Source: Rubrobacter calidifluminis (lineage in GTDB: Bacteria > Actinomycetota > Rubrobacteria > Rubrobacterales > Rubrobacteraceae). Taken from it: a DNA stretch of 64,000 bases. Shown here one piece after another: positions 36,176 through 40,284 of the stretch. Both the position numbers and the translations under genes were made by a program. A model generated the notes under the pieces. That model was given only the letters and a program-made list of their open reading frames with translations, had not been told where the DNA came from and did not search any database. Position 1 is the first letter of the stretch. Every line of letters starts with the position of its first letter. Location: the NCBI RefSeq assembly GCF_028617075.1, contig NZ_JAQKGV010000007.1, positions 1 through 64,000 of the forward strand, in the 5' to 3' direction.

Positions 36176-37147
36176 ATGGAGAGAGCGAGAACCCCGGACG
36201 CAAAAGATAGCGGCCACCAAGCCCTCTTCGAGAAAGCGGCGATCGTGGACCTCGGGGGCTGGACGGTGCTGCGCCTCTCCGGACGCGACCCGGTCGGGAT
36301 GCTTGACGCCGTCCTGACGCGCAACCTCCCCACAGAGGAGAATGGGGGGGTCTACGCGGCGCTTCTCAACCCCAAGGGCCGTATCCAGACGGACCTGCGG
36401 GCCGTCAGATGCGAGGGCGGGGTGCTGGTCGTCACAGGCAGCGCGGGGGGTGGCGCGGCGCGTGAGATCCTGGGGCGCTACGCCCCGTTCTCCCGCGTGA
36501 GGCTCGAAGACCTCTCCGCCGGCGGGGAGCGCTGGTCGGTCCTCGGCCTCTACGGGCCGGGCTCCCGCGACCTGCTCGGGCTCCCTGAGATGGCCGAGCA
36601 CGAGGGCCGCCCGCTGGAGCCGGCGCTCATCGCCATCCGGGTGGAGCTCCCGGTGCCCGGCTACGACCTGATCGGCGCCCGCAGCGCACTCGCGCGGGTG
36701 CGCCGGACCCTCGAGGACCGTGGGGCCGTCGTGGCGGACGAACGAGCCTACGAGACTGCCCGCATCTCCGCCGGCATCCCCCGCTTCGGCGTGGACCTCA
36801 CCCCGGAGAACTTCCCCGGTGAGTGCCCCACGTTCCTGCAGCGGGCGGTCAGCTTCGAGAAGGGCTGCTACCCGGGCCAGGAGACAGTCTCCCGGATGCA
36901 CTACCGGGGACACCCGAACAGGACGCTGCACCGCTTCGAGGTAGAGGGGAAGGCGCCGCAGACCGGCGCCCCCATCACCCAGCGCGGCGAAGAGGTCGGC
37001 CGGGTGACGAGCGTCGCGCCGCTGCCGGTGGGCGGCAGGGTCTTCGCCCTCGGATACCTCTCGCGCAGGGCGGAGCCGAAAGGCGAACCCCTGTACGCCT
37101 CGTCCGCGGTGCTTCACCCGGGCGATCCGGCCGAGAAGGCCCGGTAG
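36176..37147 (+). CDS. ygfZ: YgfZ/GcvT-like folate-binding iron-sulfur protein
   Basis: A 323-residue aminomethyltransferase-fold protein. The YgfZ signature K-G-C-Y-x-G-Q-E appears as KGCYPGQETVSRMHYRG in the C-terminal third. YgfZ/IBA57 proteins use tetrahydrofolate to help build or repair iron-sulfur clusters of certain enzymes. Its position about 1 kb upstream of the suf operon fits that job. Start ATG 36176 sits directly behind a TAGAAT box, suggesting a leaderless mRNA. A GC hairpin follows the stop. Confidence 0.83.
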   Translation: MERARTPDAKDSGHQALFEKAAIVDLGGWTVLRLSGRDPVGMLDAVLTRNLPTEENGGVYAALLNPKGRIQTDLRAVRCEGGVLVVTGSAGGGAAREILGRYAPFSRVRLEDLSAGGERWSVLGLYGPGSRDLLGLPEMAEHEGRPLEPALIAIRVELPVPGYDLIGARSALARVRRTLEDRGAVVADERAYETARISAGIPRFGVDLTPENFPGECPTFLQRAVSFEKGCYPGQETVSRMHYRGHPNRTLHRFEVEGKAPQTGAPITQRGEEVGRVTSVAPLPVGGRVFALGYLSRRAEPKGEPLYASSAVLHPGDPAEKAR

Positions 37148-37181: not shown

Positions 37182-37194
37182 GTTTGCCTAAAAT
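37166..37194 (+). promoter_or_regulatory. Leaderless-type promoter of the terpene cyclase-like gene
   Basis: TTCACC (37166-37171) and TAAAAT (37189-37194) are 17 bases apart. Only 6 bases separate the -10 box from ATG 37201, so the transcript should start at the A of the ATG. Confidence 0.55.
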
Positions 37195-37200
37195 ACCCGC

Positions 37201-37854
37201 ATGTTCTACGGGGTGATGCTCCTCTCGGGAGCGCTGTGGACGCTCGCCTACCTGCTCATCCTGCGCCAGGGATACCTGGACCGCACCTACGGGATGCCGC
37301 TCGCAGCACTCAGCGCGAACATCTCCTGGGAGTTCGTCTTCTCCTTCATCTACCCCCCGCACTCGATCCAACACCCCGTCAACGTGGTCTGGTTCTTCCT
37401 GGACCTGCTCATCGTGCTGCAGACGCTCGGCTTCGGACCCCGCGAGTTCCCCGACCTCTCCCGGCCCCTCTTCTACGCCACCTTCGCCCTGATGGTCGCC
37501 ATCGCCCTCCCCACCATCATCCTCATGAGCCGTACCTTCGGAGATTACGACGGCGCCTACTCGGCCTTCGGCCAGAACCTCATGATGTCCGCCCTGTTCA
37601 TCGCCATGCTCTACAACCGACGCTCACTGCGCGGACAGTCACTTTCGATAGCCCTCTGCAAGCTCTTCGGTACGGCCGCGGCCTCCTTCGCCTTCTACTT
37701 CTACTCCACCGACTACAGCGGCTCCCCCCTCCTCACCTCCCTCTACCTCGCCATCTTCGCCCTCGACCTCCTCTACACCCTCCTGGTCCTCGCCGCGACC
37801 AGGATGCGCCCCACAGCACGGGACAAAAGACCTCCCGCCAGCACCAGCATATAG
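37201..37854 (+). CDS. Small polytopic protein resembling Pyr4/PaxB transmembrane terpene cyclases
   Basis: A 217-residue integral membrane protein with seven predicted helices. The segment DRTYGMPLAALSANISWEF (27-45) closely follows the DRTYGM...N-I-x-W-E pattern of fungal Pyr4/PaxB-type cyclases, which protonate epoxide or olefin groups of meroterpenoids within the membrane. Two acidic residues are at the expected places: E44 in helix 2 and D189 in the last helix (FALDLLYTLLV). No terpenoid precursor genes are adjacent; neighbours are ygfZ and sufC. A leaderless promoter is present. The cyclase activity is inferred from motif similarity and is unproven for most bacterial relatives. Confidence 0.62.
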   Translation: MFYGVMLLSGALWTLAYLLILRQGYLDRTYGMPLAALSANISWEFVFSFIYPPHSIQHPVNVVWFFLDLLIVLQTLGFGPREFPDLSRPLFYATFALMVAIALPTIILMSRTFGDYDGAYSAFGQNLMMSALFIAMLYNRRSLRGQSLSIALCKLFGTAAASFAFYFYSTDYSGSPLLTSLYLAIFALDLLYTLLVLAATRMRPTARDKRPPASTSI

Positions 37855-38106: not shown

Positions 38107-38859
38107 ATGCTAAAGATAGAGAACCTGCACGCCGGGATAGAAGGCAAGGAGATCCTCAAGGGCGTCGATCTGGAGGTAGGGCTCGGGGAGATCCACGCCA
38201 TAATGGGCCCGAACGGTGGGGGCAAGAGCACGCTGGCGAGCGTTCTGATGGGGCACCCCCGCTACGAGGTCACCGAGGGGTCTGTGACCTTCGACGGGCA
38301 CGACGTGCTCGAGCTCGAGCCCGACGAGCGGGCGAAGCTGGGGATGTTTCTGGCGTTCCAGTATCCGAGCGAGGTACCGGGAGTCTCCGTAGCGAACTTC
38401 CTGCGCACGGCGGTCAATTCGGTCAGGGAGCAGGAGCTCTCCCCGATGGAGATGTACCGGCTCCTGCAGGAGAAGATGAAGATCATGAAGATGGACCCGA
38501 GCTTCGCCGAGAGGTATCTCAACGAGGGCTTCTCCGGCGGGGAGAAGAAGCGCAACGAGATCCTGCAGATGCTCATGCTCGAGCCAAAGCTCGCCATCCT
38601 GGACGAGACTGACTCCGGGCTCGACATAGACGCGCTGCAGGTCGTGGCCGACGGGGTCAACAGCATGCGCGGCCCCGACTTCTCGGCGATCGTGATCACG
38701 CACTACCAGAGGATCCTGCGTTACATCGAGCCCGACTACGTGCACGTCATACTCGACGGCAGGATCGCCACCTCCGGCGGCAAAGAGCTCGCCGAGGAGC
38801 TGGAGCAGAAGGGCTACGACTGGGTCCGGCAGGAGTTCGGCGCCGGGGCCCAGAGCTGA
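38107..38859 (+). CDS. sufC: SufC, ATPase of the SUF iron-sulfur assembly complex
   Basis: A 250-residue ABC-type ATPase with Walker [10 protein letters not shown], the SufC-type signature [10 protein letters not shown] and Walker [17 protein letters not shown]. It energises the SufBCD scaffold on which clusters are built in the cytoplasm. It is the first gene of the operon here, before sufB and sufD; many actinobacteria place sufR and sufB first. ATG 38107 follows GGGGG. The sufB gene begins 12 bases after its stop. Confidence 0.96.
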
Positions 38860-38871
38860 AGGAGGAGAAAG

Positions 38872-40284
38872 ATGCCTGAAGAGAAGAGCATCACCGAACT
38901 CGGTCTCGACGAGTACAAGTACGGGTTCCGCGACCCGGAGGAGTACTTCTTCAAGACCCCGCGCAAGGGGATAGACCCCGAGGTCGTGGCGATGATCTCC
39001 AAGCACAAGGGCGAGCCACAGTGGATGCTCGAGTTTCGCCTCAAGGCGCTCGAGTCGTTCCTGGAGAAGCCGCTGCCCACGTGGGGTGCGGACCTCTCCG
39101 ACCTCGACTTCGACGACATCTACTACTACATAAAGCCGGTCGAGAACCAGGGGCGCTCGTGGGATGAGGTCCCCGAGACGATAAAGAACACCTTTGAGAA
39201 GCTCGGCATCCCGCAGGCCGAGCGCGAGTCGCTCGCCGGTGTCGGGGCGCAGTACGAATCTGAGGTCGTCTACCACTCGCTCAGGAAGGAGCTCGAGGAG
39301 CAGGGGGTCATCTTCCTGGACATGGACGGCGGCCTCCGCGAGCACGAAGACATCGTGCGCGAGTACTTCGGGACGGTCATCCCGCCCGACGACAACAAGT
39401 TCGCCTCGTTAAACAGCGCGGTCTGGAGCGGCGGGTCGTTCGTCTACGTGCCCAAGGGCGTGCACGTGGACATCCCGCTGCAGGCGTACTTCCGGATCAA
39501 CGCCCAGAACATGGGCCAGTTCGAGCGGACGCTCATAATCGCGGACGAGGGCTCCTACGTCCACTACATCGAGGGGTGCACCGCCCCGACCTACACGACC
39601 AACTCGCTGCACTCGGCGGTGGTCGAGCTCATCGCCAAGCCGGGCGCGCGCATCCGCTACTCGACGATCCAGAACTGGTCGCACAACACCTACAACTTGG
39701 TGACCAAGCGCGGGGTGGCCTACGAGAACGCGACCATCGAGTGGGTCGACGGCAACCTGGGCTCGAAGACCACGATGAAGTACCCGGCGGTCTACCTGAT
39801 GGGCGAAGGGGCGCGCGGCGAGATCCTCTCGGTCGCCTACGCCGGGGACGGCCAGCACCAGGACACCGGCGGCAAGGTCGTGCACGTCGCGCCGAACACC
39901 TCGAGCCGCATAACCTCCAAGTCGATCTCGAAGGGCACGGGCAGGGCCAGCTACCGGGGGCTCCTGAAGGTACACCCCGGGGCGGTCAACTCCAAGAGCC
40001 GGGTCGAGTGCGACGCCTTGTTGCTCGACGAGCAGGCCCGCACCGACACCTACCCGTACATCGAGATCGAGGAGAAGAAGGTAACGACCGAGCACGAGGC
40101 CTCGGTCTCGAAGGTCGGCGAGGACCAGCTCTTCTACCTGATGAGCCGCGGGCTCTCCGAGGACGAGGCGATGGCGATGGTCGTCAACGGCTTCATCGAG
40201 CCGATCGCCAAGGAGCTCCCGCTCGAGTACGCGATCGAGCTGAACCGTCTGATCCAGCTGGAGATGGAAGGTTCGGTCGGGTAG
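38872..40284 (+). CDS. sufB: SufB, scaffold subunit of the SUF complex
   Basis: A 470-residue protein of normal SufB length. It has the [21 protein letters not shown]-terminus, the beta-helix core ([40 protein letters not shown]) and the C-terminal [20 protein letters not shown]242 in EGCTAP is a candidate sulfur acceptor. No intein is present, unlike mycobacterial SufB. ATG 38872 has AAGGAGG before it. A strong hairpin lies between this gene and sufD. Confidence 0.96.

Follow-up and report, generated by a model that had tools for sequence, protein, structure and literature searches.

What a membrane protein resembling the Pyr4-type terpene cyclases does when its gene stands alone in a bacterial genome is the question raised by a single open reading frame of Rubrobacter calidifluminis. 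The frame lies in the window, by which we mean the whole 64,000-nt stretch of contig NZ_JAQKGV010000007.1 that was analysed. We consider in turn whether the gene is real, what its product is, and on which substrate it may act.

The gene and its locus

The open reading frame starts with ATG and encodes a product of 217 aa; the translation agrees exactly with the initial annotation, which had placed DRTYGM at residues 27–32, followed by N40-I-S-W-E44 and D189, in a 217-residue protein. Because GC3 is 0.90, in favour of coding, and dN/dS is 0.34 relative to the same-genus copy and 0.28 relative to the next-genus copy, the frame is confirmed as a real, constrained gene under purifying selection. 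The element TAAAAT ends six bases before the ATG; since two same-genus genomes keep it and the next genus has none at that spacing, its reading as a leaderless-type promoter is unproven. The features of the locus are as follows.

37189..37194, + strand: TAAAAT, possible -10 element, seen in the sequence
37201..37854, + strand: Pyr4-family transmembrane terpene cyclase gene, 217 aa (open reading frame, PF25129, seven predicted helices, dN/dS)
36176..37147, + strand: YgfZ/GCV_T-type gene, upstream flank, ancestral neighbour of sufC and not a pathway part (Pfam GCV_T, synteny)
38107..38859, + strand: sufC, downstream flank, not a pathway part (Pfam ABC_tran, order-wide synteny)
38872..40284, + strand: sufB, downstream flank, not a pathway part (Pfam SUFBD_core, order-wide synteny)

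The neighbours of the cyclase gene encode LarC, a HAD hydrolase and the YgfZ/GCV_T protein, then SufC and SufB. No prenyltransferase or epoxidase gene is among these immediate neighbours, in keeping with the earlier statement that no terpenoid genes adjoin it. The order ygfZ-sufC-sufB is the usual arrangement across the Rubrobacterales. The cyclase gene lies between ygfZ and sufC in genomes G000–G003, and in G033 it is found on another contig, with a ygfZ-sufC junction that lacks it. Since the junction is without the cyclase in most relatives, the gene looks like a movable single-gene insertion. A methyltransferase gene is also found at the junction in G003, G016 and G017 (L065:6637-7485; L097; L098), that of G016 and G017 being similar-looking and unaccompanied by a cyclase; the junction therefore seems to be a slot that accepts accessory genes. 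Separately, the sufC match of a near-complete genome (G012:C1:2810518-2811270) contains one in-frame TAG, which may mark a pseudogene, a sequencing error or an alignment artefact.

Family membership and conserved residues

The protein matches the Pfam family of Pyr4-like transmembrane terpene cyclases, PF25129, with a score of 112.3 bits, the cut-off being 27 (E = 3.7e-32), over residues 4–197 and profile positions 19–222 of 227, and its gene is the only PF25129 gene in its own genome. A profile search had been proposed as a check on the initial annotation, and the PF25129 match upholds its family assignment. NCBIfam and PHROGs held no match to the protein, a sequence search of solved structures yielded only a chance hit with the single protein and none with the alignment, and a viral-contig scan with the homologue alignment retrieved no relatives. 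Eight residues are invariant in all 41 aligned homologues (W13, N40, W43, E44, D68, K154, D189 and Y192), and they fall within or beside the following motifs.

37237..37251, + strand: W13 to Y17, helix 1; W13 invariant and Y17 more than 90% conserved in 41 homologues
37279..37296, + strand: DRTYGM, residues 27–32, loop before helix 2; T29, G31 and M32 at least 90% conserved in 41 homologues
37318..37332, + strand: N40-I-S-W-E44, helix 2; N40, W43 and E44 invariant, E44 being the proposed proton donor
37402..37404, + strand: D68, helix 3, a further membrane acid, invariant in 41 homologues
37660..37662, + strand: K154, helix 6, a membrane lysine, invariant in 41 homologues
37765..37776, + strand: D189 to Y192, helix 7; both invariant, D189 being the second proposed catalytic acid

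The bacterial cyclase DmtA1 has been mutated at W29, Y33, N56, W59, E60, D214 and Y217; E60A and E60Q abolished the product, D214A left very little, and neither W29A nor W59A gave complementation (PMC6173783). D94 is also needed by DmtA1, and was described as unique to DmtA1-3 (PMC6173783). All seven mutated residues are kept in the window protein, as W13, Y17, N40, W43, E44, D189 and Y192, with a numbering offset of 16 for the first five and 25 for the last two, this equivalence being drawn by spacing and not by direct alignment with the DmtA1 sequence.

Like the fungal cyclases Pyr4, PaxB and AtmB, the window protein has seven helices, paired membrane acids and an NIxWE-type block; unlike theirs, its gene is alone, outside any meroterpenoid cluster. 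The bacterial enzymes DmtA1, XiaE/XiaH, TylF, GroF and ZigF are of the same size class (PMC6173783, PMC13307353), and DmtA1 alone of this cluster-borne set was matched residue for residue, by spacing. Their genes are clustered with those of prenyltransferases and often of oxidases, whereas the window gene has no such company. The family match, the DmtA1 residues and the gene context support the earlier assignment to a Pyr4/PaxB-type membrane cyclase with paired acids. From the sequence we infer isoprenoid cyclisation, and the protein is probably a Pyr4-type cyclase that acts on an isoprenoid chain and is encoded by a stand-alone gene.

Orphan relatives and candidate substrates

Across the phylum, PF25129 matches occur in 11 of 396 sampled genomes, with 9 above the cut-off, six Rubrobacterales included. 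A scan of public genomes retrieved 45 relatives at 40–93% identity, and favours close relatives because it used peptide patterns taken from the window protein. Bacterial relatives belong to the Chloroflexota, Actinomycetota, Planctomycetota, Bacteroidota, Cyanobacteriota, Fibrobacterota, Myxococcota and Pseudomonadota; archaeal relatives come from the Nitrososphaerota (Nitrosopumilus, Nitrososphaera/Nitrosocosmicus) and from Methanoperedens. The archaeal members group together in a single supported clade (100/99), and the two that were compared with PF25129 scored 104–105 bits. Clustering of neighbouring open reading frames at 51 loci uncovered no partner conserved more widely than by synteny within a lineage; the remaining larger clusters were shadow frames or broad families. 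By contrast, in a 7.8-Mb actinobacterial genome (L068) a Pyr4-like gene lies near genes for a flavin monooxygenase and a P450. Since close relatives are solitary genes in many bacteria as well as in ammonia- and methane-oxidising archaea, the orphan branch may have a role outside antibiotic-type pathways.

Two further neighbourhoods can be mentioned. On a plasmid of Nostoc sp. C057 (L072:11989-13809), a gene annotated as isopentenyl phosphate kinase lies 372 bases downstream of the cyclase relative; its Pfam match is to the broad AA_kinase only, and it is the sole isoprenoid-related hint among orphan neighbours. In Nitrososphaera sp. bin14 (L026:5965-12616), the archaeal relative is ∼1.6 kb away from genes of the suf type that resemble those flanking the window gene, probably by coincidence.

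The gene content of the carriers limits the choice of substrate. No member of the squalene/phytoene synthase family (SQS_PSY) was found in G001 or G002, which are 96% and 99% complete and encode cyclases 95% identical to that of the window, nor in 10 of 15 other carriers, all six archaea tested included, although gene absence from draft genomes can reflect incompleteness. The carriers without SQS_PSY include the isolates Catelliglobosispora koreensis and Actinomadura logoneensis. That so many carriers lack the family argues against squalene or a carotenoid as substrate, and the carotenoid-like lipid of the initial annotation has lost ground with the absence of phytoene/squalene synthase beside 95%-identical cyclases. 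In a separate observation, G001 and G002 differ in this absence from the other tested Rubrobacterales genomes that are more than 90% complete, which suggests carotenoid loss.

Dependence on an epoxide, whether of squalene, a carotenoid or another polyprenyl, as in many fungal pathways, is an unlikely alternative in light of the same genomes. Many fungal relatives do take epoxides from flavin monooxygenases, and the window's own genome holds one SQS_PSY gene and a full-length FAD_binding_3 protein, the latter common to G001–G003. Against this stand the same-genus carriers without SQS_PSY, and the absence of FAD_binding_3 at E <= 1e-12 from 5 of 19 carriers (G399, G401, G409, G410 and G422), in which epoxidation by a P450, as by ZigK, would be possible; carriers G398, G402 and G413 contain partial matches only. 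The lack of a candidate flavin epoxidase of the usual type in several carriers weakens the idea that an epoxide substrate is necessary. Direct protonation of an alkene, as has been proposed for DmtA1 and ZigF, may also apply.

The likeliest substrates, we infer, are a polyprenyl quinone tail or some other polyprenyl lipid rather than squalene or a carotenoid. UbiA-family proteins are encoded in all 18 of the Rubrobacterales genomes tested. In chemical terms a polyprenyl quinone is a prenylated aromatic, as the Pyr4 family's meroterpenoid substrates are. Menaquinone with ring-closed tails is known from Nocardia (PMC3621993). On these three grounds menaquinone in particular would be the leading candidate, if a tentative one. 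The patchy spread of the cyclase, carried by 6 of the 39 genomes in the order, gives no sign of an indispensable quinone step.

The cyclase could also belong to a dispersed meroterpenoid pathway, acting together with an unlinked cluster for a polyprenyl synthase, a class II cyclase and UbiA on contig C12, but this seems quite improbable. Such a cluster is present in the window's own genome and in G001–G003, each of which carries the Pyr4-type gene; it is not linked to that gene on the chromosome, however, and outside a single lineage the presence of one does not follow that of the other. The complete genome G016 and the genome G026 encode the class II cyclase but no Pyr4-type protein, while G011 and G033, both incomplete, have a Pyr4-type gene without the class II cyclase. 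As an observation in its own right, the C12-type cluster (L075:8269-11806 in the own genome; L076:8258-11804) encodes a polyprenyl synthase, a squalene-hopene-type class II cyclase of 557 aa that bears a DSDD motif, and a UbiA prenyltransferase. It was found in G000–G003, G016 and G026 only, and has the look of a Rubrobacterales terpenoid pathway that has yet to be characterised.

Predicted fold, proposed reaction and wider meaning

AlphaFold2 run on the homologue alignment gave a model with a mean pLDDT of 94.3, a pTM of 0.88 and seven helices, the number expected from the initial annotation; E44 and D189 are both mid-helix in the model. Loop charge would place the N-terminus outside and the C-terminus inside. 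The best solved matches found by Foldseek were cystinosin, SWEET and the KDEL receptor, none with E <0.001. VIA aligned 185 residues of the predicted model with the KDEL receptor at 4.0 Å and a Z of 14.4, a value that helical bundles can approach through arrangement alone; the stronger argument is therefore the gap to the next fold, the top 16 entries all having the 3+1+3 fold at Z 9.6–14.4 and the next fold reaching 6.6. SWEET, PQ-loop proteins, the KDEL receptor and cystinosin thus share the 3+1+3 helix architecture of the model, at 6–14% identity and with other conserved residues.

The window protein has no PQ-loop Pfam match; of 41 near relatives, 1 has PQ-loop proteins, and none of the family does. 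Comparison by hhalign with a SemiSWEET profile built from the carrier genomes gave E of 0.05–0.11, which is not significant, in a register that fits the fold; controls scored as high in 1 of 60 cases and in 4 of 60. Because this comparison is not significant, shared ancestry with the SWEET/PQ-loop fold is put forward as a proposal. In hhalign the N-terminal and C-terminal halves align weakly (P 0.015), pairing D68 with D189 as they would after an internal duplication. A SWEET/KDEL-receptor-type transporter or sensor on a retained cyclase fold, to which the best structural matches (KDEL receptor, cystinosin, SWEET) could point, is very unlikely given that all the mutated residues required for DmtA1 activity are kept, by spacing, and that sequence comparison with PQ-loop proteins gave nothing significant.

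Returning to a stand-alone cyclase, our best guess at its mechanism is an acid-initiated ring closure in the tail of some common polyprenyl lipid. An isoprenoid tail belonging to such a membrane lipid would enter the cavity between the two three-helix bundles, where E44 in helix 2 would protonate one of its alkene or epoxide groups. Residues such as W13 and W43 would steady the cation with their aromatic side chains while one or more rings close on the tail, and D189/Y192 may then aid proton transfer or deprotonation. As an accessory single gene at the ygfZ-sufC junction, the cyclase would work alone, its substrate drawn from the cell's general pool of isoprenoids, which unlinked genes supply.

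Kakumu and Helfrich (2026) reported 1107 bacterial Pyr4-like candidates and kept the 264 with terpenoid genes nearby (PMC13307353); a bacterial orphan class is thus already implicit in published work. In a literature search with most subscription journals outside its scope, we found no report of archaeal PF25129-family members or of a SWEET/PQ-loop/KDEL-receptor-type fold for the Pyr4 family; nor did we find one of genome-level limits on the substrate of orphan cyclases. We advance as speculation the broader idea that a Pyr4 branch of bacteria and ammonia- and methane-oxidising archaea cyclises ordinary membrane isoprenoid tails, for example of menaquinone, and that the whole family arose from a SWEET/PQ-loop transporter scaffold.

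Pyr4-type cyclases have been studied as natural-product enzymes and located through their clusters, and cluster-guided mining drops this one-gene branch, which could prove a variant with its own role. The SWEET/KDEL-receptor-like predicted fold suggests a possible origin of the Pyr4 family. If common lipids are the substrate, a natural-product enzyme family would be tied to membrane physiology, and its orphan members could lead to whatever enzymes cyclise quinone tails of the Nocardia type.
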